Assembly (NCBI GenBank): GCA_012511175.1
Contig: JAAZGO010000028.1
Coordinates: 1 to 64,000 of the forward strand
Length of the DNA stretch: 64,000 nt
Source: Fastidiosipila sp.
GTDB lineage: Bacteria; Bacillota; Clostridia; Saccharofermentanales; DTU023
Reading direction: 5' to 3'
Part shown: positions 1,217 through 61,798 of the stretch, one piece after another
Position numbering within the stretch: the stretch's first letter is position 1
How the letters are laid out: every line of letters starts with the position of its first letter
Notes under the pieces: generated by a model
What the model saw: only the letters and a program-made list of their open reading frames with translations
Told to the model about the DNA's origin: nothing
Database searches by the model: none
Translations under genes and position numbers: made by a program

Positions 1217-1663
1217 CTAGGTTCCGATTAAACATGATAAGGCTGTCAACAACACACCGCAGAATAACTTACTCCACATACCAGCTCGTTCAAGTTGTAC
1301 TTGAGATGGGTTATCTCCGCCAGCCCCGGACTTGGAACCCGGGTCGTCGCCCAAAGCGCTGGGGTTCATTTGAAAGGCTGGTTTTTTTACCTTGTTCCCT
1401 CCCATTCCCATGCATGCGGGGGATACTTTTCCCGCCGATACCCGGGCACGTATCTGAGGGAAGCGAACCCCCCTTAGCCTGAGATAGTCAAACCAACTCA
1501 ACATGAGACATAGGGCACCTGAAAAACTGAGACCGTAATGGAAATGCAGCCGGTCACCGTAAAGCCCGCCGACAATCGCTGAAGACAGCAGGCAGAATGA
1601 CAGCATCTTGAAAGTCTTGCCGCATACCAGCCCTGTCGGCGTTCTGGCATATCCCTCTTTCAT
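1217..1663 (-). CDS. small membrane protein in oligopeptide importer operon
   Basis: A 148-residue protein of no family I recognise. Hydrophobic segments lie near residues 18-34 and 44-60, and a third forms the C-terminus ([19 protein letters not shown]). Between them is a basic then Gly/Ser/Asp-rich loop of about 55 residues. Its ATG overlaps the stop of the upstream ATPase gene as ATGA, so the two are probably translationally coupled. That coupling is the main reason to accept it as real. A role in the transporter, for instance as a regulator or extra membrane subunit, is only inferred from position. Confidence 0.6.
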
Positions 1664-3660
1664 GAGATCATCAGCTCCTTTCGATAAATCTCGAGTTCAT
1701 GTTGATTGCCATAAACGAAATGACCGTTCACCAGCTCTTCCCATACAGGCTTGTCTTTTTGATAATTGTGAATGGCAGGGTTGTAGACAAGGAGTTCCTT
1801 GTCTTTTTCGAAATCTGGATCAGGGTAGGGCACTGCAGAGAGCAGGGACTTTGTGTAGGGGTGTAAAGGATGTCGGAATATCTCGTCGCAAGACGCCAGT
1901 TCAACAAGTTTGCCCTCGTAGATCACCGCGATTCGGTCTGAGAATAGCTTTACAACGCTTAGATCGTGCGCAATAAACAAATAGGTCAGATTTCTCTCTT
2001 TCTTTAGCTTATTCAGCAGATTCAACACTTGTGCCCTTATTGAAACATCAAGCGCAGAGATCGGTTCATCCGCTACAATAAACTCGGGATTCATGACAAG
2101 GCTTCGGGCGATCCCAATCCGCTGACGCTGACCGCCGGAAAACTCGTGAGGGAAACGGCTGACGAAATCTTTGTTTAGCCCAACCTCCTCCATAATCTGC
2201 TCCACTTTGCGAAGGCGGTCTGCTTCATCCAAATAAAGTTTATGGTTGTGAAGACCCTCTGAAATGATGTAATCAATTTTTGCCCGTTCATTGAGTGATG
2301 CCATCGGGTCCTGGAAAATCATCTGCATTTCCATTCTCAGATTCCGCATGCGCCTCCTGTCCAGCCTGCCTGTAATTGGACTGCCCTTGTACCGAATTTC
2401 TCCCTCCACGTTCTGATAGATTTTCATCAGGGCACGGCCAATGGTTGTTTTGCCCGAACCTGACTCGCCTACCAGTGACAGGGTCTCACCCTTATAAATA
2501 TCAAAACTCACATTATCCACCGCACGAAATTCCTTGTTGTTCAGCTTAAATTTGACTGTCAAGTTCTTCACCGACACAAGTATATCGCCGCTTGCACTGT
2601 CTGTTGCTCCTGGACTTTGGGTCGGTTCCTTGTGGTGCGTGGCAAGCGACTCACTGGCTGTGATTTGTTTCAGGTAGTCTTGCGCCATGGGGTGCATCAG
2701 CCAGGACTTGGCATAATGGGTTTCCGACAGTTTGTAGAGAGGGGGTTCCGCTTTGAAATCAATTAGCATAGCCTGCGGATTGCGCGGAGCAAAAGCGTCC
2801 CCTTCGATTTCTTTGTAGAGACTGGGGGGCGTGCCCCTGATGGAATACAGATCCCTTCCTTTCGTTCCCAGCTGCGGCAAGGATTTGAGCAGAGCCTTCG
2901 TATAGGGATGAAAAGGGTTCTTGAAAATATCATGGCAGTTACCGAACTCAATGATTTGGCCAGCGTACATCACACCTATCCGATCTGCAATTTTGGCAAC
3001 AACGCCCAGATCATGGGTGATGTAAACGACAGTCATCTTGAGTTCTTTTTGTAATGACTTGATGAGTTCGAGGATTTGAGCCTGCACGGTGACATCAAGC
3101 GCTGTCGTCGGTTCATCACAAATGAGAATCTCAGGTCTGCAGGCAATCGCGATCGCGATCACGACACGCTGGCGCATACCGCCCGAGAACTGCTGAGGGT
3201 ATTGTCCGTAACGGAGCTCGGCATCGTTGATACCGACACGCTTGAGCAGATCGATCGATTTTGCCTTTGCCTCTTCATGGGTTGCGTCAAGGTGCCATGT
3301 GAAAACTTCAGAAATTTGTTCACCGATCGTTCGCACCGGGTTGAGCGATGTCATCGGATCCTGAAAGATCATTGCGATTTTCTTCCCGCGCACTTTTAGC
3401 CACTGTGCCTCCGTTTCATACTCCGCCAGGTCCTCTCCATGAAAAAGCAGCTCACCTCCGGTAACCCTGCCATTTTTATCAGTCATCCCGATGAAGGATT
3501 TTGTAAACACGGTCTTCCCAGACCCCGATTCGCCGACGATTGCAAAAGTCTCGCCTTCAAACAAATCCAAGGATGCCTTACGGATTGCTTTTAGGTGCTT
3601 GCCTCTCAAATTGAAGTCGATTTCGACATTTCTGGCAGAAAAGATGATCTTATTCTCCAT
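1660..3660 (-). CDS. fused OppD-OppF oligopeptide ABC transporter ATPase
   Basis: Both ATPase subunits of a dipeptide/oligopeptide importer on one 666-residue chain. The first domain has Walker A GESGSGKT at residues 43-50, signature [12 protein letters not shown] and Walker [15 protein letters not shown]. An Opp-type C-terminal extension follows ([15 protein letters not shown]). After a Thr/Ser-rich linker the second domain repeats the set near residues 395-560: [28 protein letters not shown] and [14 protein letters not shown]. Separate OppD and OppF genes are the usual arrangement, so this is a fusion; the second Opp system at 49900-52128 keeps them apart. It lies 15 bases after the oppC gene. 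Confidence 0.93.
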
Positions 3661-3675
3661 AAGGGCGGCTTCCTT

Positions 3676-4626
3676 CTAAATGTGGTTCTTGGGATCCGAT
3701 GCATCGGCAAATTTGTTGCCGATTATATAAAACGAGATCGTGACCATACACAGAATGATTGTGGGAAGAAGCATCTGGTAAGGGTGCATGGTAAATGAGC
3801 TTCTCCCATGGTTGACGATATTCCCCAAAGTAATCGCGTCTACCGGCATTCCAACTCCGATAAAACTCAAAAACACTTCTGAACTGATCGAGTAGGGAAC
3901 ACACAAGGCCGTTTCCATGATGATCAGGCTGATAATGTGTGGAATGATGTTTTTCGTCGCAATTCTTCGTACCGGTGTGCCAAGACATTTGGACGCGATA
4001 TTGTACTCATTGTCCCGTATGGAAAGGATTCGATTCCTGAAAAAACGCGCTTCCACAATCCAGCCGCGGGACGCCATCGAAATAAAAAGCGTTAGATAAC
4101 TGGTGCCCATGATATAGGCCAGCAAAACCAGATAGACGGTAGAAGGAACATTGGTAATCACGTTGTAGACCTCCACCATGACGACATCCGCCTTTTTGCT
4201 GTATCCCCATAAGGCACCCATGATCGCACCCAAGCCGATGTCCGAGCAGGCAATAACGAAGGCCAGCAGGAATGAATTGCGCGTCCCATACCACGCCCTC
4301 GCCCATATATCGCGCCCGATTGTATCTGTGCCGAACCAGTGATCAGCTGAGGGGCGAAGATTCCACTCCGCAGTGTTGGTTGTCAGTGCCCTGGGGTCCG
4401 TTTTGGACAAGATGGGATAGATGAAACTCATTAGGATGATTGCGATTACGATGACGACCATGACCCGGACCACCATACTTTTGAAGAATGTGCGGATGGT
4501 GCTTCGCCAATAGGAGTAATTGGTGTAACCAATGTCCTCACTGCCAATATCATCAAATACGGCCGCCCGGAACATATCCCGGGTGAATCGAAGCTCCGCT
4601 GACTTGCCTGACTCTTCCGCACTCAT
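3676..4626 (-). CDS. oligopeptide ABC transporter permease, OppC type
   Basis: Inner-membrane permease subunit of the peptide importer. An N-terminal cytosolic stretch of about 55 residues precedes the first membrane helix (MVVRVMVVIVIAIILMSF). The OppC hallmark HWFGTDTIGRDIWARAWYG is near residues 95-113, and five more helices follow. The EAA-type loop that docks on the ATPase reads EYNIASKCLGTPVRRIATKNIIPH in the C-terminal half. Length (316 aa) is normal. It starts 4 bases after the oppB stop and is read with the flanking genes. Confidence 0.93.
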   Translation of the reverse strand: MSAEESGKSAELRFTRDMFRAAVFDDIGSEDIGYTNYSYWRSTIRTFFKSMVVRVMVVIVIAIILMSFIYPILSKTDPRALTTNTAEWNLRPSADHWFGTDTIGRDIWARAWYGTRNSFLLAFVIACSDIGLGAIMGALWGYSKKADVVMVEVYNVITNVPSTVYLVLLAYIMGTSYLTLFISMASRGWIVEARFFRNRILSIRDNEYNIASKCLGTPVRRIATKNIIPHIISLIIMETALCVPYSISSEVFLSFIGVGMPVDAITLGNIVNHGRSSFTMHPYQMLLPTIILCMVTISFYIIGNKFADASDPKNHI

Positions 4627-4629
4627 CGC

Positions 4630-5571
4630 CTACACCTCGTCGTCTGTCAGTTTTATTCTGGGATCAATGAAAGCGACCAGCAAGTCGCCCAAAAATGCCC
4701 CAAGAACGGAAAGTACCGCGTACATCAGAACAATAATCTGTACCAGATTGTTGTCTTGTCTTTGGATTGCCTTGGTCAACAATCCCCCCGTGCCTGGAAT
4801 GGCGTAAAGACTTTCGATCACAAGTGATCCTGAAATGATGAAGAGGATGTCGGACGGAAGATAAATGACAATCGGTATGATTGCATTTCGGAAAATATGT
4901 TTCCTCAAAATTTCTTTTTCACTTAATCCTTTAACCTGCGCAAATTTGACATAGTCCTTATTTTCCTCATCGACCATGAACCTTCTTAGCCAAATGGCGT
5001 ACCAGGCGATACTGCCAAGTGACAGGCATATTGTTGGCAAGATCCAGGAGGCGGGCCGATCGCGATAATACACCAGCGGAAGATTCAAGAAACGTGATAC
5101 CCAAACCTGAATGAAGAATAAATAGATCAGGCTGGGGATGGCTCTGACAACCAGCACATAGGTTGTCCCGATGCCCTCCCCTAACCTATCCTTATGCTTT
5201 ACCATCCACATGCCAAGCAGCAGTCCAAGCACCATGCCCAAAACCAGGCTGGCGAATCCGAAGGCAGCCGTCACGGGTATTTTCTCTGCAAGGATTGTCT
5301 TAATCGGTACTTTCGGGTAGATGGTTAGACTCCGGCCCAGATCGCCTTGGAACAGCTTCTTAACAAATCGCCACAACTGAACATAGGAAGGGTCGAGAAG
5401 GCCCTGATTGCGCAAATAGGTCATTCTTGTCGCAGGATCGGACTCTTTCAACATCTCTGTCGTAAAGTAGCCATTCATGGGCATGAAGCGAAGCAGCATG
5501 AAGACAACAACAAAGACGATTATTATGGTTACGACTGAACGCAAAATCCTTTTAAAGATATACTTCGTCAT
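4630..5571 (-). CDS. oligopeptide ABC transporter permease, OppB type
   Basis: Inner-membrane permease pairing with the OppC-type subunit. It opens with MTKYIFKRILRSVVTIIIV, a typical OppB first helix, and has the long external loop followed by five helices. The EAA loop is near residues 200-225 (KFAQVKGLSEKEILRKHIFRN), and the family end motif IDPRIKL is present. I placed the start at 5571, where GGAAGG precedes the ATG. A frame opening at 5634 would run through the perfect hairpin at 5595-5630 and add 21 residues no OppB has. Confidence 0.92.
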   Translation of the reverse strand: MTKYIFKRILRSVVTIIIVFVVVFMLLRFMPMNGYFTTEMLKESDPATRMTYLRNQGLLDPSYVQLWRFVKKLFQGDLGRSLTIYPKVPIKTILAEKIPVTAAFGFASLVLGMVLGLLLGMWMVKHKDRLGEGIGTTYVLVVRAIPSLIYLFFIQVWVSRFLNLPLVYYRDRPASWILPTICLSLGSIAWYAIWLRRFMVDEENKDYVKFAQVKGLSEKEILRKHIFRNAIIPIVIYLPSDILFIISGSLVIESLYAIPGTGGLLTKAIQRQDNNLVQIIVLMYAVLSVLGAFLGDLLVAFIDPRIKLTDDEV

Positions 5572-5594
5572 AAAATCAGCACCTTCCACGATAT

Positions 5595-5630
5595 GAAAGA
5601 ATTGCCCGTAACGGTCCGGGCAATTCTTTC
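5595..5630 (-). terminator. hairpin between peptide-binding protein and oppB
   Basis: A perfect 14-bp inverted repeat (arms 5595-5608 and 5617-5630, 8-base loop) between the binding-protein stop and the oppB start. In the reading direction only short T runs follow, so it is likely a leaky terminator or an mRNA stabiliser for the upstream gene. That would give more binding protein than membrane subunits. Confidence 0.6.
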
Positions 5631-5654
5631 TCAACAGGGTGTCTGGAAATCGGC

Positions 5655-7571
5655 TTATTCCCCCGCCAACGCAGCAGCCTTCTTCACTTCGTAGTCGGCC
5701 TTGATTTCTGCAATCGTTTTTGCTGGCAGCACTTGGTCAATCACTTGCATCCCTTTATATCGTGTATTTCCAAACAGGGTCAAGGGTTCTGTGTAGGGTA
5801 TGCTGCGGGTCATATAATAGCCTCTAAGGCTTGAAATCATGGGAATGACATAGGCGCCCTGGATCAGGAAAGCTTCTGCTTCGGCAAAGTACCCGTAACG
5901 TTCGCTCAAGTCGGAGGTATCGAGCGCCTTTTCAATCAGCTCATCAAAAGAAGGAACCTCGTAAAGGCCGACATTCTCAGCGCCGTCGGTTGTCATTCTG
6001 GCAAGAATACAGGAGGGATCCGAATAGGTCACGCTCAGGGAATCATAGTAGACATCATAATTGAGCGGATCCGCGACCGTGCTGTAGAAGCTGCTGGTCG
6101 CAAAGGCCAGTTGGATATCAATGTAATCAGAACCAATCGCTTCCTCGATCATTTTCTCCAGTAGTTGTGCCATGATGATTTCATCTTCATCATCAGTGCC
6201 TACGTAAAGTACCGTCACCGGAAGTTTGCCGTCAACTTTGTAGGAGGCGACCGGAAGCATATCAACTGTCGTCGCTTCAACCCCGAGGATATTCCCTTCC
6301 GAATCACACAGCTCCGCCACCGCTTTTTCCATGTATTCCCTTGCCAGGCTTTTGTTGAAGTAATCTGTTGCCTTGATGGCTGCCAGGGGTTCATAATCGG
6401 TGTAGTCTTTCCCTTTGTCATCGTAGATGATTTCTTCCGCGCATATGGTATTTCTCACCAGTCTTTTGGGCGTAACTGAGTCCCGCAGATAGGCAATCGA
6501 TTCGCGATCAATTGCATGTTGCAGGGCGCGGCGGAAATTCTCATTATGGATGAAGGTCTTGAATTCTGGGTTGGCCGATTCAAAATCCAGCCAAAGATAA
6601 TTGGTGCTGCTGCTGTGTTCTGTCGGTGCCAGTGACTCTGCCCATTCCGTGCCCTGCAACGAAGCATACTCCTCTGATTCCACAACGCACTCATCAATTT
6701 CATTGCGCTTGAACATCTCCAGAGCCGTTGTTCCATCAGGCATTTTCTGATACTCAATCGTCTTGATGGTCACGCTTTCGGCGTCCCAGTAATGCGGATT
6801 CTTGGTCAAGGTGATTTTTTTATCACGCTCGTATTCTGATATGTAATAAGCGCCACAGAATAACAGGTGTTCATGGTCAATCCCGAAATCCTCTCCCAGG
6901 TCAATTGCATAGGAATATTCAACCGGAAGCAAGAGCATGCTGCTTTCGATCAGGGACATGAAATAGGGCGCACCGGTATTAAGTGTGTACTGAACCGTAA
7001 GTTCATCCAAAGCCTTGACGCCCACCCTTTCATCAAAGGCTGCAACGACTTCACTTCGCACAAGATCTGTTTCTTCATCAGGATCGTCGATATCATCAAG
7101 ATCCCAGTAATAATCGGCCAAGCCAGAAATGAGGGAGCGGATGACGCGCATTCCATAGGCATCATTCTGCGGATCGCCGATGTAACGTATCGCATCAACA
7201 AAATCATCAGCTGTCACGGTGAATCCCGTATCCTCTCCTTTGCTGTTAACCCATTTAATATCTTTACGAAGATGGAAGGTCCACACTGTACGGTCGTCGT
7301 TCACCTCCCAGGATTCGGCTAGAGACGGCTTGTACACGCCGTATTGATCCGGCTCGATCAAACCGTCAATGCAGTTGGCCATCAACCCCCGAACACCTGC
7401 GTATACCGTTGAATAATAGTTGAGTGACGGGTAATCGGACGAAAAGTATGTCCGATAGGTATCTTTGTAAACAAAATCGCTGACACCTGGTAATGTCGGC
7501 TTTTTCTGGCAGCCAGCACATAAGCCCAACAGCACGGCCAGTACAAGCAATACAGTGAATGTACGTTTCAT
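5655..7571 (-). CDS. oligopeptide-binding lipoprotein (SBP family 5)
   Basis: Extracytoplasmic substrate receptor of the peptide importer. The N-terminus MKRTFTVLLVLAVLLGLCAG is followed by Cys21, a standard lipobox, so the mature protein is lipid-anchored. Family 5 features follow: SLAESWEVNDDRTVWTFHLR near residues 104-123 and GAYYISEYERDKKITLTKNP near 243. Length is 638 residues, somewhat long for an OppA/DppA-type protein, and includes an acidic insert (YYWDLDDIDDPDEETD). It is the first gene of the operon, with a promoter-like site at 7638-7666. The substrate cannot be read from the sequence. Confidence 0.92.
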   Translation of the reverse strand: MKRTFTVLLVLAVLLGLCAGCQKKPTLPGVSDFVYKDTYRTYFSSDYPSLNYYSTVYAGVRGLMANCIDGLIEPDQYGVYKPSLAESWEVNDDRTVWTFHLRKDIKWVNSKGEDTGFTVTADDFVDAIRYIGDPQNDAYGMRVIRSLISGLADYYWDLDDIDDPDEETDLVRSEVVAAFDERVGVKALDELTVQYTLNTGAPYFMSLIESSMLLLPVEYSYAIDLGEDFGIDHEHLLFCGAYYISEYERDKKITLTKNPHYWDAESVTIKTIEYQKMPDGTTALEMFKRNEIDECVVESEEYASLQGTEWAESLAPTEHSSSTNYLWLDFESANPEFKTFIHNENFRRALQHAIDRESIAYLRDSVTPKRLVRNTICAEEIIYDDKGKDYTDYEPLAAIKATDYFNKSLAREYMEKAVAELCDSEGNILGVEATTVDMLPVASYKVDGKLPVTVLYVGTDDEDEIIMAQLLEKMIEEAIGSDYIDIQLAFATSSFYSTVADPLNYDVYYDSLSVTYSDPSCILARMTTDGAENVGLYEVPSFDELIEKALDTSDLSERYGYFAEAEAFLIQGAYVIPMISSLRGYYMTRSIPYTEPLTLFGNTRYKGMQVIDQVLPAKTIAEIKADYEVKKAAALAGE

Positions 7572-10013: not shown

Positions 10014-11132
10014 CTAAGCAAATCTGCCCGCCAGGATAGCTTCAATCTGACTGTCGTCGGCAGAAATACCGTAGAACAGCTCCAGGAAATCCCTGACTTC
10101 CTCATGCAATGAATTGGAATAGACTTGCGGGTAAAAAATGGAACCCAGCCAGCGCAAACCCAGGTAGCGGTTGACCGAGGGCGGGTCGGCCAGAAAGCCG
10201 TAAGGTTGGGACGGCACGACGATCATGCGGCCTTCCTTCATGGCCGGCAAGGACATCCAGGCCGGATCGGCCAGCATTTCCTCCTGGAGTTTTACCCCGT
10301 CGATCAGGACGTAATCGGGATTCCACCCGATCACCTGCTCCATGGAAACCTCGCTGCCTCCGCCCTTGTTTGAAGCTTCCACATCAGCTACATTAATCAC
10401 GGGTACGAAGTCAAGCACTTCACTGTGGAAAGACCCCACCGCATTGGTGCTGAGGCCCAGCTCCCCCAACGCCCAGTAAACACTGACGCGCTTTTCTTCC
10501 GGAATTTCGGCCTTGGCCTTATCAGACAGGGCCAGCGTCTCCTCACAATAGAGGGCCAGGGGATCAGTGCGCGAGGTGTCGCCGATCAGGCGGCCAATGT
10601 CGCGGTAAGCCTGCGGCATGCCCGTGAACATGGCTTCGATGAAGACTGTGGGGATCTTGATCTGATCCATCAACTGGTCCAAATCGTCCCGGGTCGTACC
10701 TTTTGTTTCGCCAATGTCCACAATCACCTGTGTCTCCGCCGCCAGGACGGTTTCAAGGTTGAAGTCCGGCCCCTTGCCATAAAACTTGCCCATTACGGGC
10801 AGGCTGCTGTATTTCGGATCGATCAGTTTTTGCTGGCTTTCCGTGAAGGGAAGCGAGATTCCGCACAGAAGGTCGGGGCAGGCTGTATAAAGGACAATAT
10901 TGGCCAGCGTCCCGGACGGGGCAATACGGGTCAGTTCGGTTGGAAGTTCAATTTCGCGGCCGGCCGAATCAAGGAAAACATTCCGTTTTTCCTCCTGAGT
11001 CGGGAACGGTGCCGTTTGCGGCGGATCCGTTTCCTCCGGCGGAGTGGCGGGAGCACAGGCGGCTGGCAGAAGCAGAGCCAGGATCATCACCGCGAGAATA
11101 AGCGGCAGCCATCTTTTTTTTCCTTTTATCAT
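10014..11132 (-). CDS. metal/chelate-binding lipoprotein of type II ABC importer (FecB/BtuF-like)
   Basis: Extracytoplasmic receptor of a FecCD-family importer. The signal peptide ends in a LLLPAAC lipobox (Cys near 26). A Pro/Thr/Glu-rich linker leads to the periplasmic-binding fold: VFLDSAGREIELP near 52, then GKGPDFNLETVLAAETQVIV, and near 250 SMEQVIGWNPDYVLID. Length (372 aa) is usual. It is the last gene of the xdhC operon, 9 bases after the ATPase gene. The ligand is not evident: siderophore, cobamide, haem and molybdate receptors share this fold. The xdhC neighbour makes molybdate or tungstate an attractive inference. Confidence 0.85.
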   Translation of the reverse strand: MIKGKKRWLPLILAVMILALLLPAACAPATPPEETDPPQTAPFPTQEEKRNVFLDSAGREIELPTELTRIAPSGTLANIVLYTACPDLLCGISLPFTESQQKLIDPKYSSLPVMGKFYGKGPDFNLETVLAAETQVIVDIGETKGTTRDDLDQLMDQIKIPTVFIEAMFTGMPQAYRDIGRLIGDTSRTDPLALYCEETLALSDKAKAEIPEEKRVSVYWALGELGLSTNAVGSFHSEVLDFVPVINVADVEASNKGGGSEVSMEQVIGWNPDYVLIDGVKLQEEMLADPAWMSLPAMKEGRMIVVPSQPYGFLADPPSVNRYLGLRWLGSIFYPQVYSNSLHEEVRDFLELFYGISADDSQIEAILAGRFA

Positions 11133-11141
11133 TTTTTCCTC

Positions 11142-11951
11142 CTAAGAATTTGGTTTCCTTATCCTGACAAAATCGGGCAAGACCGTCACATCGCCAGTCT
11201 GTGCGCTCTCTTCCAGGCGGATGGGTATCCCGTATACATGAGAGAGCAAGGACTCTGACAAGACGTGATGGGGCGGGCCATAGGCATAGGCCGTTTGCCC
11301 GCTGATCAGAAGCACGTCATCAGCGTAAAGAAAAACGTGCTGTGGGTTATGGGTTGAAAACAAAACCAGGTAACCGCGGTCGGCAAGCTCCCTGATCTGC
11401 TCCAGCACACGTATCTGGTTGCCGTAGTCGAGGCTGGCGCACGGTTCATCCATGATTAAGAGGGGGGCATCCTGGGCAACAGCGCGGGCGATGAGTGCCA
11501 GCTGCTGTTCACCTCCGGACAACTGGTCGAAACGCCTGTCCGCGAATTTTTCAATTTTCAACAGACGCAAGGCTTGAGCTGCGCGCTGTTTCTCCTTTCT
11601 CCCCGGCTGGGAAAAGACACCGAAAGAGGCGGTTGTCCCCATGAGCACAAGCTCGGATACGGAGAATTGAAAGTCTCCCGGCTGCGTCTGTGGAATGTAA
11701 GCCATTTCCCTGGCACGTTTGCGGATGGACAATTCCGGCAGGCTGCTCCCGTTCACCATGATCCGGCCCTGCTGCAAGGGCAGGATGCCGAGAATCAATT
11801 TGAACAGGGTCGACTTGCCCGCCCCATTGGCCCCCAGGACCCCCACGGCCCGGCCTCCCGGTGATTGGAAAGAAAGATCCTTCAGAACCGGGTCAAGCCG
11901 GTAGCGGAAGGAGAGGTCACTGACTTCGAGGCCCCGGGTCATGGTAGTCAT
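11142..11951 (-). CDS. type II ABC importer ATPase (FecE/BtuD-like)
   Basis: Cytosolic ATPase of the FecCD-type importer. Walker A GANGAGKST is near residues 39-47, Q-loop AYIPQTQPGDFQFSVSELVLMG near 90, signature LSGGEQQLALIARAVAQ near 143, Walker B LLIMDEPCASLDYG and switch His in LFSTHNPQHV. The segment VSELVLMGTTASFGVFSQPG is typical of the iron-siderophore/cobalamin/MolC group. Length is 269 aa. Its start overlaps the stop of the permease gene by 4 bases, so the two are co-translated. Confidence 0.93.
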   Translation of the reverse strand: MTTMTRGLEVSDLSFRYRLDPVLKDLSFQSPGGRAVGVLGANGAGKSTLFKLILGILPLQQGRIMVNGSSLPELSIRKRAREMAYIPQTQPGDFQFSVSELVLMGTTASFGVFSQPGRKEKQRAAQALRLLKIEKFADRRFDQLSGGEQQLALIARAVAQDAPLLIMDEPCASLDYGNQIRVLEQIRELADRGYLVLFSTHNPQHVFLYADDVLLISGQTAYAYGPPHHVLSESLLSHVYGIPIRLEESAQTGDVTVLPDFVRIRKPNS

Positions 11952-13741
11952 GCAGCCAACTCCCTGCGGCCCTGGCGAAGAATCAGATAGATGAAGAAGG
12001 GCGCGCCGACAAAAGCGGTCAGAATTCCGAGGGGAATCCCGCTACTTGTTGCCCGGCGGGCGATATCATCGACAAAAATCATGAAACCTGCCCCGATCAA
12101 GGCCGAAGCGGGGAGCGAAAACCGATTGTCCGCCCCGGTAATCATTCGGGCCATGTGGGGGATGACCAGGCCAATCCAGCCAATCACCCCGCTGACTGAG
12201 ACACAGGTCGCCGTGATCAGGGTTGAAGCCATGACGAGAACAAACCGGATCAGACGTATGCGGACACCCATGGAAGCCGCCGCTTCTTCACCCATGGTCA
12301 AAACGTTGAGCTGCCAGCGCAAGAGCATGATGAGTATCATGCCGCCCAAGATGAGGGGAGCGGCAAAAAACAGCTGTTTCATCTGCGATGAATTCAGTGA
12401 GCCCATAAGCCAGTAAGTGATGGCGGGCAACTGGTCTGTCGGATCCGCTACCAGCTTGACCAGCGACAGGCCTGCCGAGAAAAGTGAGCTGACCACCATG
12501 CCCGTCAGGATGAGAGCCAGAATACGCTGGGCCCTGACAAAGGAGGTCAGTATCAGAACCAGGAGGATGGACACCAGACCAAACAAAAAAGAGAGCGAGG
12601 TGATGGCGGAGGCGGGCAAGCCCCACAAAATGGCGAGGGCCGCGCCGAATCCCGCGCCAGAAGAGGCACCCAGAACATCCGGCGAAGCCATGGGATTCCG
12701 GAATACCCCCTGAAAGGTGTGGCCCGCCACCGACAGGCCTGAACCGACCAGAAGGCCGAGCGCGATGCGGGGCAGGCGGACATTAAGCAGAACCGTATGG
12801 ACTTCGGCCGGAAAGACCGCTCCCGTCCCGAAAATCCGGCTCCAGAAGAAGCGGACGATGGTGGCGGGGCTGATGCCATACCAGCCGACCGCAAAGGAGA
12901 GAATGACGATGCCGGTCAGCGCCGCGGCCATGATGGCGAAACGCCAGGTCATGCGCTTCCGGGATCCAGGTTTCTCCTCTTCTCCAACCGGCACATCCTG
13001 CGGAGTCGCTGCCTGGGGAATGGCTGTTTTGTCCTTTGCCAGTGCACTGCCCCAGCTGGTACGTTTTTGGTGGGCCATGGTCTGGCTGCCGTTGACCAGC
13101 TCAATTTGAACCAGTGAGGGATGCGATGCGATTATCTGTCTCCGCTCGCGGATGCACCCTTTTTCTTCTTCCGTCAGGGTGGAGCGGCCGGCTGATCGTT
13201 CAAATGAACTCTCATGCTTCCAAACAAGAACCACCGGCCGCGAGCGGTCATCCAACAAGGAGAGGACCCGCTGATAAAAGTTGTCAATCAGAAGCTCATC
13301 GCCGCCGAGCTCATCGAGGATCAGCAGCGTGCCCGGCCGATCCAGGAGCCTGCAGGCAGTGTCATGAAAGCGGTCGAGATCAAAACGGCGCCCTTTTTCA
13401 TCGGCTATGAGGAAGCAGTCATCTTGGGGAAAGGAAGTCCGGTCATGGTGTCTGACGGTCAAAAAACCTGTTCCCCGCTGGTTGGCGGCAGCAACATGGG
13501 CAAATCCCTGTTTTGTTTCATCGGCGTCGATATGCCGGATCGTCATATAGCCTGCCGGCACCGCCTGCATGTCGTCAATCAGGTGCTGAACAAGGGTCGA
13601 CTTGCCGGAGCCGATGGCGCCCGTAAGCAGGATGTGACGCCCGCTTCCTTCTAACAGATCAATTTGAGAACGTATGAAAGCGAGAAGCGCTTTCTCATCT
13701 GCGGGATAGGCGAAGGAAACCCTCTCAGCCAGTCTGTCCAT
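11948..13741 (-). CDS. FecCD-type permease with N-terminal P-loop NTPase domain (fusion)
   Basis: A two-part 597-residue protein. Residues 1-220 form a P-loop NTPase: Walker A TGAIGSGKSTLV near 42-53 and Walker B TLLILDELGGDELL near 137-150, resembling the THEP1-type nucleoside triphosphatases. After a charged linker, residues from about 267 form a complete FecCD/BtuC permease with VRLPRIALGLLVGSGLSVAG, FRNPMASPDVLGASSGAGFG and VIGWIGLVIPHMARM. The two halves are open in one frame with no stop, so the fusion is seen directly, though an internal ATG before AHQKRTSWGS could give a separate permease. It sits 18 bases after xdhC. Its job in the importer is unknown. Confidence 0.85.
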   Translation of the reverse strand: MDRLAERVSFAYPADEKALLAFIRSQIDLLEGSGRHILLTGAIGSGKSTLVQHLIDDMQAVPAGYMTIRHIDADETKQGFAHVAAANQRGTGFLTVRHHDRTSFPQDDCFLIADEKGRRFDLDRFHDTACRLLDRPGTLLILDELGGDELLIDNFYQRVLSLLDDRSRPVVLVWKHESSFERSAGRSTLTEEEKGCIRERRQIIASHPSLVQIELVNGSQTMAHQKRTSWGSALAKDKTAIPQAATPQDVPVGEEEKPGSRKRMTWRFAIMAAALTGIVILSFAVGWYGISPATIVRFFWSRIFGTGAVFPAEVHTVLLNVRLPRIALGLLVGSGLSVAGHTFQGVFRNPMASPDVLGASSGAGFGAALAILWGLPASAITSLSFLFGLVSILLVLILTSFVRAQRILALILTGMVVSSLFSAGLSLVKLVADPTDQLPAITYWLMGSLNSSQMKQLFFAAPLILGGMILIMLLRWQLNVLTMGEEAAASMGVRIRLIRFVLVMASTLITATCVSVSGVIGWIGLVIPHMARMITGADNRFSLPASALIGAGFMIFVDDIARRATSSGIPLGILTAFVGAPFFIYLILRQGRRELAA

Positions 13742-13759
13742 GGATGCTGTCCTGCCTGC

Positions 13760-14866
13760 TCAAAGCTTTCTTCTGGCTTCCAGTTTTCCGGCCCGCACGG
13801 CAATCATCTGGGCCGCGATGCTGATGGCGATCTCCTCCGGTGTCTCGCCGCCAATGTCAAGGCCGATGGGCGTGACCGCACGTTCAAGCGCTTCTTTGGT
13901 ATGTCCGCGTTCCATGAGTAGCCTGTCGATCGTCTGTGTTTTGTGACGGCTGCCGATGACCCCGATGTAGCGCGCCGGCGTTGCAAGGACCTGGTCCTCG
14001 ACGTCCAGATCATTGCTGTGGCCGCGGGTCATGATGCAGACATAGTCTTCCGGGCCGATGGTGACTGATTGGCCGATATCCTTCAAATCGCAGAGTCTGA
14101 CATCATAAGCGCCCGGAAAAAGGGCGGGATCGGTGAACTCCTCACGATCATCGAGGACAACGACCGCAAAGTGCACCTTGGACAGAACAGGCGCCAGGGC
14201 CTGGCCGACGTGACCGCCTCCGAAAATGTAGACGACACCGGGCACCACCAGTTCTTCGACGTAAAACCGGTGACCGCAAAGCTCAAAGGTTCGCCCCCGC
14301 TGGCAGAGCAGATGGGGTTCGGCCAGTAAAGCCCTGGTACAGGCGTCCTCTTCGGGAAAACCCGTAAACTGACAACCCTTCATGGAAAAGTCGGGGTCAG
14401 CCGGATTGGCGCCCTCCGGCGCTGTGAAAAGGGCCAGCCCCAACGGGCCCTTTTCGCTGATATCGGTCAGCAGCCAACTTGGCTGGCGCCTTTTGATGGC
14501 TTGACGGGCGGCCTTTACGATGCGCAGAAGCTCCTGATCGCTGCCCTTAAGGAAGAGATAGTGGACGGTCGCATTGCCGCCGCAGATCATGCCAATGTCC
14601 TCAATCTGATTCTTGGTCAAAAAGAAGTGATGGATATCGGAACGCCGGTCACGGATGGCTTCCTGTGCAATGGACAGGGAGTGAAGTTCAACAGCGCCGC
14701 CGCCCACAGTGCCCGCAAGGCGGCCTGTCGGGCCCACAAGCATGCGGGCGCCCTCCCCGCGCGGGGTTGCTCCCGAGCTTGCCGTTACGGTCGCAAGCAC
14801 CGTATCCTGTTTATCCTCCAAGGCTGATTCAAGTGCTTTGAGTACGGAGTCCATAACCATTTCCAC
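13760..14866 (-). CDS. XdhC/CoxI family molybdenum-hydroxylase maturation protein
   Basis: XdhC-family proteins bind molybdenum cofactor and help its sulfuration and insertion into xanthine dehydrogenase-type enzymes. The N-terminal XdhC/CoxI domain has TASSGATPRGEGARMLV near residues 28-44 and GTVGGGAVE near 53-61. The C-terminal Rossmann domain has YIFGGGHVGQALAPVL near 215 and ends with IGLDIGGETPEEIAISIAAQ. Length is 368 aa. The start is uncertain: GTG at 14866 or ATG at 14860 or 14854. It leads the operon with the FecCD-type importer, and a promoter with a perfect -10 lies just upstream. No hydroxylase structural genes are in the window. Confidence 0.9.
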   Translation of the reverse strand: MEMVMDSVLKALESALEDKQDTVLATVTASSGATPRGEGARMLVGPTGRLAGTVGGGAVELHSLSIAQEAIRDRRSDIHHFFLTKNQIEDIGMICGGNATVHYLFLKGSDQELLRIVKAARQAIKRRQPSWLLTDISEKGPLGLALFTAPEGANPADPDFSMKGCQFTGFPEEDACTRALLAEPHLLCQRGRTFELCGHRFYVEELVVPGVVYIFGGGHVGQALAPVLSKVHFAVVVLDDREEFTDPALFPGAYDVRLCDLKDIGQSVTIGPEDYVCIMTRGHSNDLDVEDQVLATPARYIGVIGSRHKTQTIDRLLMERGHTKEALERAVTPIGLDIGGETPEEIAISIAAQMIAVRAGKLEARRKL

Positions 14867-14913: not shown

Positions 14914-14941
14914 ATTATAGCCGATTTACATTCAAATACAA
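14914..14941 (-). promoter_or_regulatory. promoter of xdhC-ABC importer operon
   Basis: Perfect -10 TATAAT at 14914-14919, 16-base spacer, and TTGTAT at 14936-14941, ending 48 bases before the GTG at 14866. It lies between the ROK kinase stop and xdhC, so xdhC and the importer can be expressed apart from the kinase. Confidence 0.6.
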
Positions 14942-14948
14942 GTCGCCC

Positions 14949-15923
14949 TCATCGAGGAACTGAACCCTCCTTATGGAGCATGGCAGCACCGATGATGCCT
15001 GCATCGTTGCCCAGCCGGCTGATCAATACGGGGGGCAGCGAAAGGATAAAATCGTCCGGTTTTTCGGGCTCAAGGAGATTGCGAAGCGGCTCCAGAAGCA
15101 AATCCCCCGCACGGCTGATGCCGCCGCCCAGGAGGATGATGTGGGGACGGTAGAGTACCGTCAGCGTCCGTATGCCCGCAGCCAGGTAGGCAGCATAACG
15201 GTTCAGAACCCGCAAAGCGGCAGGGTCGCCCGTCCGGACAATATCGAAAAATATTTTCACGTTCTCCGAGGGCCTGTCCTGCCGAATCAGCCGGCGCAAA
15301 GGTGTCTCACCCGCTTCGAGCAGACTTTCCTGGAGAAGGCGATTCAGACCCCGGATTGAAATGAACATCTCGAGGCATCCTCTTCTGCCGCAAGTGCACA
15401 AGGGCCCGTTCTCCGCCATAATCGCAGAATGTCCGGGCTCGATCCCCAAGCCGGTCGCGCCACGGAATATCTTGCCCTTATAAACAAAGCCTCCCCCCAG
15501 CCCCGTGCCCAGCGTAAGAAGCAGGGCACTTTCAAAGGAACTCGCCTCGCCGGCCAAATACTCTCCCCACGCGGCGCAGTCCCCGTCGTTGCCTGTTTTG
15601 ATCACGGTTTGGGGAAAGTGCTGCTTAAGGAGGGAAATGAAGTCGATGTGATCCAGGTACAAATTGGGGGCTTCAATCATCAAACCCGTTTCCCCGTCAA
15701 CAAGACCGGGCAGGCCAAGTCCGATGGCGCTGAGATCGGACAGCTTGAGCTTCCTGCGGGCGAGAAGATTGTCAATGCAAAGGGCCATGCTTTCCGCCAG
15801 GGATTCAGCAGGCCTTGGCACTTTCGTCTTGACAGTCTCACGATCGGCTATCCTGTGACTGTCGTCAACCAGACCGACCGCTATGTTGGTTCCGCCCAAG
15901 TCAATGCCAATAGACCAACTCAT
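14949..15923 (-). CDS. ROK family sugar kinase (glucokinase-like)
   Basis: Phosphorylates a hexose, most likely glucose, with ATP. The ATP-binding motif IGIDLGGTNIAVGLVD is at residues 5-20, the substrate loop GNDGDCAAWGE near 131 with the catalytic Asp, and GTGLGGGFVYKG near 158. The ROK zinc site is His in EPGHSAI with CTCGRRGCLE near 195-204. Length is 324 aa. GGGAGG precedes the ATG. There is no helix-turn-helix, so it is a kinase and not a ROK repressor. Substrate among glucose, mannose and related sugars is not settled. Confidence 0.9.
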   Translation of the reverse strand: MSWSIGIDLGGTNIAVGLVDDSHRIADRETVKTKVPRPAESLAESMALCIDNLLARRKLKLSDLSAIGLGLPGLVDGETGLMIEAPNLYLDHIDFISLLKQHFPQTVIKTGNDGDCAAWGEYLAGEASSFESALLLTLGTGLGGGFVYKGKIFRGATGLGIEPGHSAIMAENGPLCTCGRRGCLEMFISIRGLNRLLQESLLEAGETPLRRLIRQDRPSENVKIFFDIVRTGDPAALRVLNRYAAYLAAGIRTLTVLYRPHIILLGGGISRAGDLLLEPLRNLLEPEKPDDFILSLPPVLISRLGNDAGIIGAAMLHKEGSVPR

Positions 15924-16003: not shown

Positions 16004-18019
16004 ATGGACAGATACGAAACTGAATCCTGTCATCATATTACACTTGACGGCCCCTTGCCGCCCGATCCTGTTTTTGAAGCGGGCATTCGCCGCGCTCCCC
16101 GCCGCGAGGCCAGGCTTTCGGAGAAAGAGCGCGCGATTGCTCTGAAAAACGCTTTGCGCTATATCCCCGTGCAACACCACGAAATCATGGCTTCCGAATT
16201 CTTGAGGGAACTCGACCGGCACGGGAAGATCTATGGCTACCGCTACCGGCCGCAGGGGAGGCTGTTTGGCAAACCGATCGACCAGTACAAGGGAAATTGC
16301 ATCGAAGGCAAGGCCTTCCAGGTCATGATCGACAACAACCTGGATTTTGAGGTGGCCCTTTATCCCTACGAGCTGATCACTTACGGAGAAACGGGCGCAG
16401 TCTGTCAAAACTGGATGCAGTACCGGCTGATCAAGCAATACCTGGAAATTCTGACCGATGAACAGACCCTGGTCCTCTTCTCAGGGCACCCCGTCGGCCT
16501 CTTCCACAGCCCGCGTTCGGCACCCCGGGTCATCCTGACCAATGGCCTCATGATCGGCCAGTACGACAACCTGGAGGACTACAACCGGGCCTCTTCCATG
16601 GGGGTATCAAGCTATGGCCAGATGACTGCCGGCGGCTGGATGTACATCGGACCGCAGGGCATCGTACATGGCACCTACAACACCCTGCTCAATGCCGGCA
16701 GGCAGGAGCTGGGCATCCCCAATGAGGGAAACCTGGCCGGCCGTCTTTTCGTCAGTTCCGGCCTGGGCGGCATGTCGGGCGCACAGGGCAAGGCCTGCAA
16801 GATCGCCGGGGGCGTCGCCATCATCGCCGAAGTTGATCCTTCGCGCATCAAGACCCGGCATGAACAGGGCTGGGTTGATGTCATTGCCGATTCCTGTGAA
16901 AAGGCCTTTTCAACCGCGGCCGAAGCCATGGCGGAAAAGGAAGCGCTGGCCATCGCCTATCACGGCAACATCGTTGACCTTCTCGAGTTCGCGATCGACC
17001 GGATGATCCCCATCGAGCTCTTGTCGGATCAGACCTCCTGTCATGAACCCTATACGGGAGGCTACTGCCCGCAGGGTCTGACCTACGACGAGCGGACCGC
17101 CATGCTGGCGGAGGATCCGGACCGTTTCAGGGAATACGTAAACCGGTCGCTGGCTGCCCATTACCGGGCTATCAAAACCCTGACTGAAAGAGGAACCTAT
17201 TTCTTTGATTACGGCAACTCCTTCATGAAGGCAGTCTTCGACTCCGGCGTCCGCGAGATCTCCAAAAACGGTGAAAATGACCGTGATGGCTTCATCTGGC
17301 CTTCCTACGTGGAGGATATTATGGGCCCTCTGCTCTTTGATTATGGCTATGGCCCCTTCCGATGGGTGTGTCTTTCAGGCAAAGATGAAGATCTTCGTTT
17401 GACGGATCAGGCTGCCATGTCCTGCATCGATCCCGAAAGGCGCTATCAGGACCGCGATAACTACAACTGGATCCGGGACGCGGAAAAGAACAAGCTGGTG
17501 GTCGGCACCAAAGCCAGGATTTTGTACAGTGATGCCCTGGGACGGATGGAAATCGCCCTCAAGATGAATGAACTTGTGAGGCAGGGGAAAATCGGCCCAG
17601 TCATGATCGGCCGCGATCACCACGACACGGGCGGCACGGATTCGCCCTTCCGGGAGACCTCCAACATATATGACGGCAGTAATGTGACCGCCGATATGGC
17701 AACTTCGGTCTTCGCAGGCAACGCAGCGCGCGGCATGAGCCTTTGTGCCCTCCATAACGGAGGAGGGACCGGGATTGGCAAGGCCATCAACGGCGGTTTC
17801 GGCTGCGTCCTGGACGGATCCGAACGCATCGACCAGGTGCTTCGCAATGCCGTGCTCTGGGATGTCATGGCCGGCGTTGCCCGGCGCGCCTGGGCGCGAA
17901 GCCGGAATGCCATTGAAACTGCAGAAGAATACAACCGGATCATGAAAGGCAAAGATTACCTGACCCTGCCCTACCTGGCAGATGACCAGCTGATCCAAAA
18001 AACACTCAGGGAAGGATAA
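16004..18019 (+). CDS. hutU: urocanate hydratase
   Basis: Adds water to urocanate to give imidazolonepropionate, using tightly bound NAD+ as an electrophile; second step of histidine breakdown. Family signatures are clear: FSGHPVGLFHSPRSAPRVILTNG reduced here to its key parts GHPVGLF and PRVILTNG near residues 165-185, QMTAGGWMYIGPQGIVHGT near 206, NAD loop GLGGMSGAQGKA near 251, and DQTSCHEPYTGGYCPQG near 341. The C-terminal half has GRDHHDTGGTDSPFRET. At 671 aa it belongs to the longer clostridial-type branch, above the roughly 550 aa of the Bacillus enzyme. It is first in the operon; hutH is not adjacent. Confidence 0.95.
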   Translation: MDRYETESCHHITLDGPLPPDPVFEAGIRRAPRREARLSEKERAIALKNALRYIPVQHHEIMASEFLRELDRHGKIYGYRYRPQGRLFGKPIDQYKGNCIEGKAFQVMIDNNLDFEVALYPYELITYGETGAVCQNWMQYRLIKQYLEILTDEQTLVLFSGHPVGLFHSPRSAPRVILTNGLMIGQYDNLEDYNRASSMGVSSYGQMTAGGWMYIGPQGIVHGTYNTLLNAGRQELGIPNEGNLAGRLFVSSGLGGMSGAQGKACKIAGGVAIIAEVDPSRIKTRHEQGWVDVIADSCEKAFSTAAEAMAEKEALAIAYHGNIVDLLEFAIDRMIPIELLSDQTSCHEPYTGGYCPQGLTYDERTAMLAEDPDRFREYVNRSLAAHYRAIKTLTERGTYFFDYGNSFMKAVFDSGVREISKNGENDRDGFIWPSYVEDIMGPLLFDYGYGPFRWVCLSGKDEDLRLTDQAAMSCIDPERRYQDRDNYNWIRDAEKNKLVVGTKARILYSDALGRMEIALKMNELVRQGKIGPVMIGRDHHDTGGTDSPFRETSNIYDGSNVTADMATSVFAGNAARGMSLCALHNGGGTGIGKAINGGFGCVLDGSERIDQVLRNAVLWDVMAGVARRAWARSRNAIETAEEYNRIMKGKDYLTLPYLADDQLIQKTLREG

Positions 18020-18023
18020 GGGT

Positions 18024-18932
18024 ATGACTGAAGGCAGAAAAATCCTTGAATGTGTCCCCAATTTCAGTGAGGGAAGAAATGAAGAATCAATCGAGCGGAT
18101 TGTCGCCCCCCTCAAGGCCCGGCCGGGTGTCCGGCTGGTCAACTATGAAGGAGATCGCGATTACAACCGGCTGGTGGTAACCGTTCTGGGTGACCCGCAA
18201 GCTGTAAAGGAAGCCATACTGGATGCGGTCGGAATTGCCACCGAATTGATTGACCTTAACCATCACCAGGGTGAACACCTCCGGATGGGCGCGACCGATG
18301 TAGTCCCGCTGATCCCCATCCGCAATATGACCGTCGGGGAAACAGTGGAACTGTCCAGGGAATTGGGCCGCGCCATCAATGAACGCTACGGAATCCCCGT
18401 TTTTCTCTATGAAGATTCAGCCTCTTCGCCCGACAGGGTCAACCTGGCCAATATCCGGCGGGGCCAATTTGAGGGTATGGCCGAAAAACTGTTGCTCCCT
18501 GAATGGGAGCCCGACTTCGGTCAACGGAAAATTCATCCAACGGCCGGGGTAACAGCTGTCGGGGCACGCTTCCCGCTCATCGCCTATAACATTGACCTGG
18601 GAACGGACAAGCTTGAAATTGCCAACCGGATCGCCCGCGCCATCCGCCAGTCTGGCGGCGGCTTTCAATTCATCAAGGCGGGCGGAGTCGAACTCAAGGA
18701 AAAGGGAATCGTTCAAGTCACCATGAATATCACCGACTACCGCAAAAATCCCATCTACCGCGTCTTTGAGACCGTCCGCATGGAAGCGGCCCGCTACGGT
18801 GTTCCCGTCATCGGAAGCGAGATCATCGGCCTGGCCCCCCTGGACGCCTTGACGGGCTCACTGGAGCATTATCTGGGCCTCCATGGCTTCGACGACACCA
18901 AGATCATCGAGCACTGGCTGATGGACGATTAG
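18024..18932 (+). CDS. ftcD: glutamate formimidoyltransferase
   Basis: Moves the formimino group of N-formimino-L-glutamate to tetrahydrofolate, releasing glutamate. The N-terminal motif LECVPNFSEGRNEESIERI is at residues 8-26, the active-site region NHHQGEHLRMGATDVVPLIPI is near 79, and PTAGVTAVGARFPLIAYNI follows. It is monofunctional (302 aa), lacking the cyclodeaminase half of the animal enzyme. It starts 4 bases after the hutU stop. No fchA-like cyclodeaminase gene lies in this operon, so that step must be coded elsewhere. Confidence 0.94.
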   Translation: MTEGRKILECVPNFSEGRNEESIERIVAPLKARPGVRLVNYEGDRDYNRLVVTVLGDPQAVKEAILDAVGIATELIDLNHHQGEHLRMGATDVVPLIPIRNMTVGETVELSRELGRAINERYGIPVFLYEDSASSPDRVNLANIRRGQFEGMAEKLLLPEWEPDFGQRKIHPTAGVTAVGARFPLIAYNIDLGTDKLEIANRIARAIRQSGGGFQFIKAGGVELKEKGIVQVTMNITDYRKNPIYRVFETVRMEAARYGVPVIGSEIIGLAPLDALTGSLEHYLGLHGFDDTKIIEHWLMDD

Positions 18933-49899: not shown

Positions 49900-50904
49900 T
49901 CAATCCTGGCTGTAAAGATGACAAGCGACGAAGTGACCTTCTTCGTATTCCTTGAATTTCGGCGCAATCTCTGAGCAAATCGGCATGACGTTGGGGCACC
50001 GGGTCCGGAATTTGCAGCCGGAAGGTGGATTGACCGGGCTCGGGATATCCCCCTCCAAAACGATCCGGTTCATTTTCACATCGGGATCGGAAACTGGAAC
50101 CGCTGACAGCAGCGCTTTCGAATAAGGGTGCATGGGATTGGAAAAGATCTTCTTCTTGTCGCCCATCTCCATGATGGTACCCAGATACATGACACCAACC
50201 GTATCGGACAGGTACTCGACGACCGACAGGTCATGTGAGATAAATAAATAGGTGTAGCCAAACTGTTCCTGCAAATCCTTCATCAGATTGATGATCTGCG
50301 CCTGGATGGATACATCAAGGGCACTCAAAGGTTCGTCAGCGATGATGAATTTCGGATTGAGTGCGACCGCCCTCGCGATACTGATCCGCTGTCTTTGACC
50401 GCCCGAGAATTCGTGAGGATAACGGTAAAAATACTGGGGCTGCAAGCCACAGTCACGCATGACCTTCAAGATATAGGATCGATATCGATTCTTGGGTACG
50501 ATCTTGTGCGACTTGACTGCCTCCCCGATAATCTCACCGACAGGTACACGGGGCGAAAGACTCGAGTAAGGATCCTGGAAGATCATCTGCATCTGCGGAC
50601 GCATCCTGCGCAGGGCCCGCTTGGACACTTTTGACAGGTCTTTTCCATCAAAAAATACCTGACCGTCGGTCACATCAATCAAGCGCAGGATAGTCCGGCC
50701 CACCGTTGTCTTGCCGCAGCCTGATTCTCCAACCAGACCCATGGTCGTTCCGCGCTTAATGGTGAACGAAACATCGTCCACAGCTTTGACATAGGACCGT
50801 CTTTTACCGAATCCGAACTTTGAAATCGGAAAGTACTTCTTCAGGTGGTTGACTATCAGGATGTCGTCACTGCCCTTATCAATTTTCAAATTTTCGTTGA
50901 TCAT
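49900..50904 (-). CDS. oligopeptide ABC transporter ATPase, OppF type
   Basis: Second ATPase of the importer, 334 aa. [30 protein letters not shown] is OppF-like at its key LKKYFPISK (20-28); Walker [18 protein letters not shown] is near residues 59-75, signature [19 protein letters not shown] near 165, Walker [15 protein letters not shown] near 187. The Opp C-terminal zone has [18 protein letters not shown], whose Cys residues bind iron-sulfur in some Opp/Dpp ATPases. It starts 6 bases after the OppD stop. Confidence 0.94.
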
Positions 50905-50910
50905 GGTGCT

Positions 50911-53199: not shown

Positions 53200-53213
53200 G
53201 ACAAGCCCCTCCC

Positions 53214-54212: not shown

Positions 54213-54416
54213 ATCAATCCTCTATTCGTCAGAAAAAGAAACTCCCCCTGACCATGGCGCCATTCTGCAACGACAGACCCTGCAGGCCGGCTCTTTTTTG
54301 GCAGGCGCTCTCCTTTGCCGGATCTTGTCCATCTAAGATAGCAAACCTGTATTCAAGGGGCAACCGCCCAGCGGCTTTTCTTAACTGAAAGGTCCCTTTT
54401 ATCCAGAGAAAAGGCA

Positions 54417-54443
54417 CAAGGCCCGGGTTTTCTCCGGGCCTTG
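54417..54443 (-). terminator. hairpin after second peptide-binding protein gene
   Basis: Ten-bp arms CAAGGCCCGG (54417-54426) and CCGGGCCTTG (54434-54443), 7-base loop, then TGCCTTTTCTC in the reading direction. Probably a leaky terminator that reduces transcription of the membrane-subunit genes. Confidence 0.65.
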
Positions 54444-54481
54444 CACCTGAAGCAGCTTAATGCCACTTGATTCGACAAAGA

Positions 54482-60848: not shown

Positions 60849-60860
60849 ATTGAGAGACTC

Positions 60861-61631: not shown

Positions 61632-61798
61632 CGCTTCACTCCTTTACCATCAATGCTCATTATTCCATCGTGCAAATAATGCGCTGCAATAGCGCTTCAT
61701 TACTCTTCGCAAGACTCAGTTACCGTGCTCTACGTAAGACTATTCTTGGCTATCGCAAAAAATATCCTCTCCTCCTGCTATAGAGACAAGCTGAAGAC

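Follow-up and report, generated by a model that had tools for sequence, protein, structure and literature searches.

A THEP1-type NTPase fused to a FecCD permease in an xdhC operon of Fastidiosipila sp.: a possible importer for molybdenum cofactor salvage

MolBCA of Haemophilus influenzae, a FecCD-type importer, is an accepted low-affinity molybdate system (PMC7759655). XdhC binds molybdenum cofactor (Moco) on receipt from the proteins that synthesize it and shields it up to its delivery (PMC10609526). The general view is that cells with a need for Moco synthesize it themselves; Caenorhabditis elegans is presented as an exception, a nematode that obtains protein-bound Moco from the bacteria it eats, by a route not yet known (PMC9793310). 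Peng et al. 2018 listed 305 bacteria with molybdoenzymes and an incomplete Moco pathway, which were left unexplained; their Discussion proposes new synthesis components or molybdenum-free enzymes, not import, and names no candidate transporter (PMC6147048). One paper speculates on molybdopterin uptake via proteins of the type 11 secretion system (T11SS). In the open-licence literature, we found no described importer for bacterial Moco uptake, salvage, or auxotrophy, and nothing that joins any two of XdhC, FecCD, DUF364, and THEP1. Here, we describe an operon of Fastidiosipila sp. in which xdhC is followed by a nucleoside triphosphatase (NTPase) fused to a FecCD permease. It lies in a stretch of 64,000 nucleotides (contig JAAZGO010000028.1 of assembly GCA_012511175.1, positions 1 to 64,000), called the window below.

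The operon is on the minus strand (Table 1). The sequence-only reading of this DNA had proposed one compact operon of xdhC, the fusion, an ATP-binding cassette (ABC) ATPase, and a binding lipoprotein, and the coordinates and domains agree: from xdhC to the substrate-binding protein (SBP), the junctions are an 18 bp gap, a 4-bp overlap, and a 9 bp gap. The xdhC product has both family domains, XdhC_CoxI and XdhC_C, and scores 298 bits with NF045664 (XdhC_rel_AOR), below the curated cut-off of 350. With a FecCD permease, an ABC ATPase, and a Peripla_BP_2 SBP in one operon, the system belongs to the type II (FecCD/BtuC) ABC importers, and the fusion carries the only FecCD gene of the window genome. 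We tentatively favor, on the basis of sequence comparison and somewhat short of an even chance, that this BtuCD-like importer salvages Moco or a late intermediate of it and hands the cofactor to XdhC.

The genome of the window (G000; 1.7 Mb, 42 contigs, 97.7% complete) encodes five xanthine-oxidase-family molybdenum hydroxylases, two of which exceed curated cut-offs (XdhA, 1181 versus 780 bits; selenium-dependent xanthine dehydrogenase (XDH), 1271 versus 830 bits); the GGxFGx[KR] motif is found in 5/5 and the C-terminal GE motif in 4/5. A MocA/ModE-like gene is also kept. Searches of this genome detected no MoaA, MoaC, MoaE-like, MoaB/MogA, MoeA, molybdopterin-binding protein, or ModA. Because there is no MoeA, the cell needs another source of Moco, and import is proposed; because the BtuCD-type class carries whole cofactors, we propose Moco or Mo-molybdopterin as the cargo.

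The same pattern is seen in relatives. MoaA and MoaC were not found in fusion-bearing G018, G019, G022, G023, G028, and G029, some of which have radical-SAM matches in larger frames (E ~1e-7 to 1e-9, not counted as MoaA), and the weak PF13531 matches in G018 (E 6e-10) and G028 (E 7e-21) are far below the ModA-like ones. Neither gene was found in G001, G002, G004, and G005 of genus g2 (G001 has a MoeA-like fragment), and none of MoaA, MoaC, and MoeA in G036. As far as drafts show absence, the window genome and 12 other genomes of the family have molybdenum enzymes without detectable Moco synthesis, and the Moco-less relatives hold several open-frame hydroxylase copies each. Within the genus, five genomes have both Moco genes and ModA and eight have neither, with G020 taken as lacking and the fragmentary G021 omitted. 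Genome incompleteness was considered as the cause of the missing genes and rejected, i.e., the product of the missing fractions over 13 genomes is ~3e-13, a value that ignores shared assembly bias and shared ancestry. In G020, MoaA and MoaC were not found, and a MoaB gene and a MoeA-like gene lie beside a second FecCD-type gene and DUF364 (L240:5823-9649); G024 has a similar locus with DUF364 and MoeA-like genes (L252:2541-8593). This suggests a related importer tied to Moco chemistry in both.

The NTPase-permease fusion is real, as the sequence-only reading had supposed. Among 38 genomes of the family, it was found as one frame in 10 of the 14 genomes of the genus (two of the 10 are cut by contig ends), and eight aligned fusions are 58-71% identical to that of the window, with the Walker A motif GxxGSGKST and DELGG invariant and the linker variable. 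The unbroken frame across 10 genomes and the invariant motifs rule out a frameshift, sequencing, or assembly artefact. A search of public records for the fusion beyond the genus gave 10 related loci, all on contigs of Clostridiaceae, Bacillota, or Mageeibacillus metagenome-assembled genomes except one on a 3-kb "Smithella" contig, which is probably misbinned. By profile, fold, Walker A, and acidic Walker B, the N-terminal domain is a member of the THEP1/NTPase_1 family. NTPase_1 (PF03266) matches residues 36-178 over its cut-off (E 2e-9), and a profile of 17 relatives first matches human THEP1 (2i3b) and Aquifex THEP1 (1ye8). With the model of the domain (predicted local distance difference test, pLDDT, 88), VIA-align returned THEP1 1ye8 on top (Z 13.1, root-mean-square deviation 2.9, 143 aligned residues) and then an unrelated structure (Z 10.7); with Foldseek, THEP1 was not among the 50 matches listed. 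The structural model of the whole fusion, built with eight close sequences, is poor (pLDDT 51).

In sister genera, the two parts are separate proteins. At the hutU-ftcD-linked place in genus g2, XdhC is followed by a stand-alone NTPase of 221-233 amino acids (31-35% identical) with no transporter there, and the FecCD-ATPase-SBP genes are located elsewhere (FecCD 45-46% identical to that of the window). G036 (g7) and G383 (another family) have an unfused operon XdhC-NTPase-DUF364-FecCD-ATPase-SBP beside a MobA-like gene, which in G036 also adjoins a molybdenum hydroxylase gene. G007 (g3) has XdhC-FecCD (56%)-ATPase-SBP, in which the ATPase carries a C-terminal DUF4213/DUF364 fusion (L124:1705-3210), and a second XdhC followed by a 175-amino acid NTPase. 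The THEP1-type NTPase thus goes with XdhC independently of the permease and, because it stands alone after XdhC in sister genera, the fusion of the two parts seems to be derived; the possibility that permease and NTPase are made separately, raised by the sequence-only reading, is true of these genera and untrue of the window's own. The link of the operon to xdhC, on which the same reading rested, is borne out in relatives, and a link to molybdenum hydroxylases is supported as well. Related operons without xdhC, named in that reading as a counter-argument, were not seen for the fusion locus, except that in G024 xdhC lies at another place.

Other partners of the NTPase were found farther away. 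In G335, NTPase_1 forms the C-terminal part of a fusion with a MocA-like nucleotidyltransferase (131.9 bits with TIGR03310, under the cut-off); in G087 and G136, it is N-terminal to a methyltransferase in the gene after XdhC, and in G087 and in the G112 cluster it adjoins both a methyltransferase gene and the operon of a hydroxylase. NTPase_1 joined to an S-adenosylmethionine (SAM) methyltransferase, either in one protein or as a neighboring gene, directly after xdhC or beside a molybdenum hydroxylase operon, was noted at L214:1203-2408, L215:6945-8156, and L272:10033-11303. Moco-making G238 has FecCD, ATPase, methyltransferase, SBP, and NTPase_1 genes in series (L233:2368-6633), followed by thiamine-type-looking genes, judged from start sequences only.

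To look outside the family, 392 genomes were drawn class-wide, the neighborhoods of the best XdhC genes were taken, and MoaA/MoaC were checked in 16 genomes. Both were present in 13 of these, in which xdhC often neighbors moa and mod genes. MoaA was missing from three (G335, G087, and G383), all of them among the four genomes with NTPase_1 near xdhC, the fourth being the Moco-making G136; in G383, a MoaC fragment at the edge of a contig is all that was seen of Moco genes, and this genome was classed as neither Moco-less nor Moco-making. G335, from a second family of the order and 99% complete, is the best independent replicate of the operon with the missing Moco pattern: it has a hydroxylase operon and the row XdhC-SBP-FecCD-ATPase-MocA::NTPase_1, and MoaA and MoaC were not found in a search limited to these two genes, MoeA and ModA not being searched there. 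Across 32 XdhC-bearing genomes, XdhC-linked or FecCD-fused NTPase_1 occurs in 13/13 Moco-less and 5/19 Moco-making genomes (raw Fisher 3e-5), and the Moco-less status requires at least six changes on the XdhC tree. XdhC-linked FecCD without the NTPase criterion is a weaker marker (8/13 versus 3/19, raw p 0.02), and when only the genus is considered, the fusion shows no significant association with MoaC (p 0.20). The pattern is consistent and not statistically established. Gene order, the fusion, the co-occurrence with hydroxylases, the lack of detectable Moco genes, and the recurrent THEP1/XdhC/MocA linkage are what the genomes directly display.

We infer the substrate, the direction of hand-over, and a kinase role as follows. 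The lipoprotein would bind external Moco, Mo-molybdopterin, or a dephosphorylated form, and the FecCD/ATPase pair would carry it inward; XdhC would take over the imported cofactor for sulfuration and insertion into XDH-type enzymes. The THEP1-type domain, tethered on the cytosolic side, may act on the incoming cofactor. MocA-type enzymes use the terminal phosphate of molybdopterin for the attachment of a nucleotide, and the most economical role of the domain would be to re-phosphorylate a dephospho-cofactor so that a MocA-like enzyme can add the nucleotide. With a kinase that restores this phosphate, it would make sense that one lineage has the domain on the importer and another has it on a MocA-like enzyme.

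Several points weigh against this salvage model. The genomes of the genus are drafts, and the fusion-bearing G024 and G030 hold full Moco genes and ModA, so cells that make Moco can have the fusion system too; FecCD relatives near hydroxylases are also found in the Moco-making G342 and G112. G037 and G017 have one hydroxylase-like gene each (L270:1177-4023 and L271:681-2969) with no XdhC match and no MoaA/MoaC, and G037 is also without a close FecCD; orphan hydroxylases therefore exist without the importer system, which leaves them unexplained. The association of NTPase_1 with the Moco-less status, corrected for the tree, comes to 2.5 pairs for and 0 against (p 0.25). Free Moco is unstable, and the kinase role of the THEP1 domain is a guess.

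The substrate proposed in the sequence-only reading was molybdate or tungstate. The operon would then be an importer of the MolBCA kind, XdhC would be its neighbor since both serve molybdenum enzymes, and the cofactor would come from unrecognised or missing genes. The MolBCA parallel holds for the permease: among solved structures, to which the ranking is confined, its best relative is MolB/HI1471 (2nq2, E 2e-68), ahead of FhuB (2e-57), HmuU, and BtuC. MolA is also among the solved relatives of the SBP, which is nearer to 4pag, however, both in a single-sequence search (4pag, E 7e-38; 4hn9, 4e-13; 4ovk, 3e-12; MolA 3psa, 8e-11) and in a profile search (4pag, 3e-71; 4ovk, 3e-35; 4hn9, 9e-30; MolA, 8e-28). 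A ModA/WtpA-type binding protein (PF13531) is found neither in the operon, where the SBP is of the Peripla_BP_2 family, nor in the window genome. Fusion genomes are usually without ModA and three fusion-less relatives have it (Fisher 0.035), which speaks for this reading, but the absence of ModA is fully accounted for by absent Moco synthesis (ModA in 5/5 genomes with Moco genes versus 0/8 without), and fusion-bearing G024 and G030 have ModA-type genes too. Since none of the searched Moco-synthesis and molybdenum-insertion genes was detected in the window genome, imported molybdate would have no known use there, and its relatives are likewise without MoeA/MogA-type or Moa genes to use it. The molybdate/tungstate reading fits poorly, and we regard it as unlikely.

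It is similarly improbable that the operon encodes an iron-siderophore, heme, or corrinoid importer which merely shares an operon with xdhC, with the THEP1 domain serving that ligand. Such ligands dominate the FecCD, ATPase, and SBP families, the NCBIfam models nearest to the ATPase describe importer ATPases for heme, F420-0, and corrinoids (all below cut-off), related importers come with DUF364 "heavy-metal chelation" genes, and the window genome has a single FecCD. Yet no curated BtuC/FecD/FhuB model reaches its cut-off for the fusion permease, and among the FecCDs compared, every one that scores ≥180 bits to that of the window belongs to a genome with a hydroxylase, whereas family genomes without hydroxylases reach 173 at most; the 180-bit line was chosen after the scores were known, and some hydroxylase-bearing genomes also hold lower-scoring FecCDs. 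That links to XdhC, to MocA-like genes, to MoeA, and to hydroxylases recur across different families also speaks against a chance neighborhood.

An importer of some other compound for molybdenum enzymes, for example molybdenum or tungsten chelated by a metallophore, or selenium in a form that serves Se-dependent hydroxylases, would suit the SAM methyltransferase and DUF364 genes at related loci and the Se-dependent XDH of the window genome, but it leaves the source of Moco without synthesis genes unexplained; metallophore-biosynthesis genes were not identified, with no systematic search made, and we give this explanation little weight. Least probable of all, we consider, is that Moco-less genomes hold hydroxylases which are relics without cofactor or depend on a different one, and that the operon is vestigial, for although Peng et al. 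2018 raised molybdenum-independent forms of orphan molybdoproteins (PMC6147048), the two hydroxylases far over the XDH cut-offs, the kept motifs, the retained xdhC and MocA/ModE-like genes, and the several open-frame copies in Moco-less relatives argue otherwise.

Table 1 Features of the xdhC operon and its neighbors in the window
Feature	Position	Strand	Remarks
xdhC-type gene	14866..13760	-	368 aa; family of Moco-binding and sulfuration chaperones; XdhC_CoxI (E 5e-17), XdhC_C (E 1e-40), each above its Pfam cut-off
NTPase-FecCD fusion open reading frame	13741..11948	-	597 aa
P-loop NTPase domain of fusion (N-terminal), THEP1/NTPase_1 family	13088..13741	-	residues 1-218
Linker between NTPase and permease	12938..13087	-	residues 219-268; length-variable in alignment; pLDDT < 50
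FecCD permease domain of fusion	11975..12913	-	residues 277-589; PF01032 E 3e-82
ABC importer ATPase, heme/corrinoid/siderophore-type	11951..11142	-	269 aa; ABC_tran E 4e-31
Substrate-binding lipoprotein (SBP)	11132..10014	-	372 aa; Peripla_BP_2 over cut-off; lipobox LPAAC
Possible -10 box of xdhC operon, TATAAT	14919..14914	-	read from sequence; not in consensus-scan list
Poor -35, TTGTAT	14941..14936	-	16-nt spacer to TATAAT
ROK-family sugar-kinase-like gene	14949..15923	-	PF00480 E 2e-61; upstream of xdhC
hutU and ftcD, histidine degradation, divergent	16004..18932	+	NCBIfam models over cut-off

The promoter, called good in the sequence-only reading, has a perfect TATAAT, but the -35 is poor and a consensus promoter scan gave no minus-strand sigma-70 site at the operon; both boxes sit inside the 82-bp gap between the ROK-family gene and xdhC. 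No Moco or tungsten riboswitch over gathering score was found in nine related loci, and nothing credible in the window. The ROK gene is also upstream of xdhC in L037, L040, L041, L043, and L044 and is a conserved neighbor in the genus, probably with a function separate from the operon. In genera g1 and g2, the locus can be recognized by hutU-ftcD (neighbors in L037-L050), and the order ROK-XdhC-fusion-ATPase-SBP, divergent from hutU-ftcD, is kept in the genus wherever contigs permit. In several genomes of the genus, a peptidase C26 gene (gamma-glutamyl hydrolase family) adjoins the fusion operon, or directly follows xdhC where the fusion is absent (L037:2903-3619, L044:5223-5957, and L132:7747-8487); it was not seen beside the fusion operon in the window. 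Elsewhere in the window are oligopeptide/dipeptide ABC transporter clusters (1660-7571 and 49900-56917), the first of which includes two ABC ATPase domains joined in one 666-amino acid frame (1660-3660), and type I restriction-modification genes hsdR, hsdS-like, and hsdM (57151-63361).

If the salvage model is true, the importer would help explain orphan molybdoenzymes and place the THEP1 family in a pathway, the first such hypothesis for THEP1-type NTPases. Going one step further, and with slightly more reserve, this could be the first bacterial importer of ready-made Moco: in anaerobic communities, as with vitamin B12, some of the members may synthesize the cofactor, and auxotrophs may salvage it by means of a FecCD importer together with XdhC and a THEP1-type enzyme that processes the cofactor. 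An operon co-occurring with missing Moco synthesis is a testable candidate for cofactor exchange between bacteria.

Compared with known systems, the operon resembles MolBCA (HI1470/71/72) in its FecCD-type importer, its closest solved permease, and its link to molybdenum metabolism; it differs in the N-terminal THEP1 NTPase on the permease and in xdhC, in a host without detectable Moco synthesis, and in an SBP closer to 4pag than to MolA. Its XdhC would handle Moco before insertion as that of Rhodobacter capsulatus does, although there Moco comes from biosynthetic proteins (MoeA) not found in the window genome (PMC10609526). Like the orphan organisms of Peng et al. 2018, which are mostly without known molybdenum transporters, the host has molybdenum enzymes without a complete Moco pathway (PMC6147048). 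With importers of the BtuCD-F, HmuUV, and F420-0 type, which are the precedent for whole-cofactor import, the operon shares permease, ATPase, and SBP families; unlike them, it scores below curated cut-offs and is genetically linked to XdhC and hydroxylases. The NTPase domain is like THEP1 (Aq_1292; human cancer-related NTPase) in sequence and fold. We know of no established pathway for known THEP1 proteins; unlike them, the domain lies next to xdhC in fused form, with a permease as its partner here and either a MocA-like enzyme or a methyltransferase in relatives.

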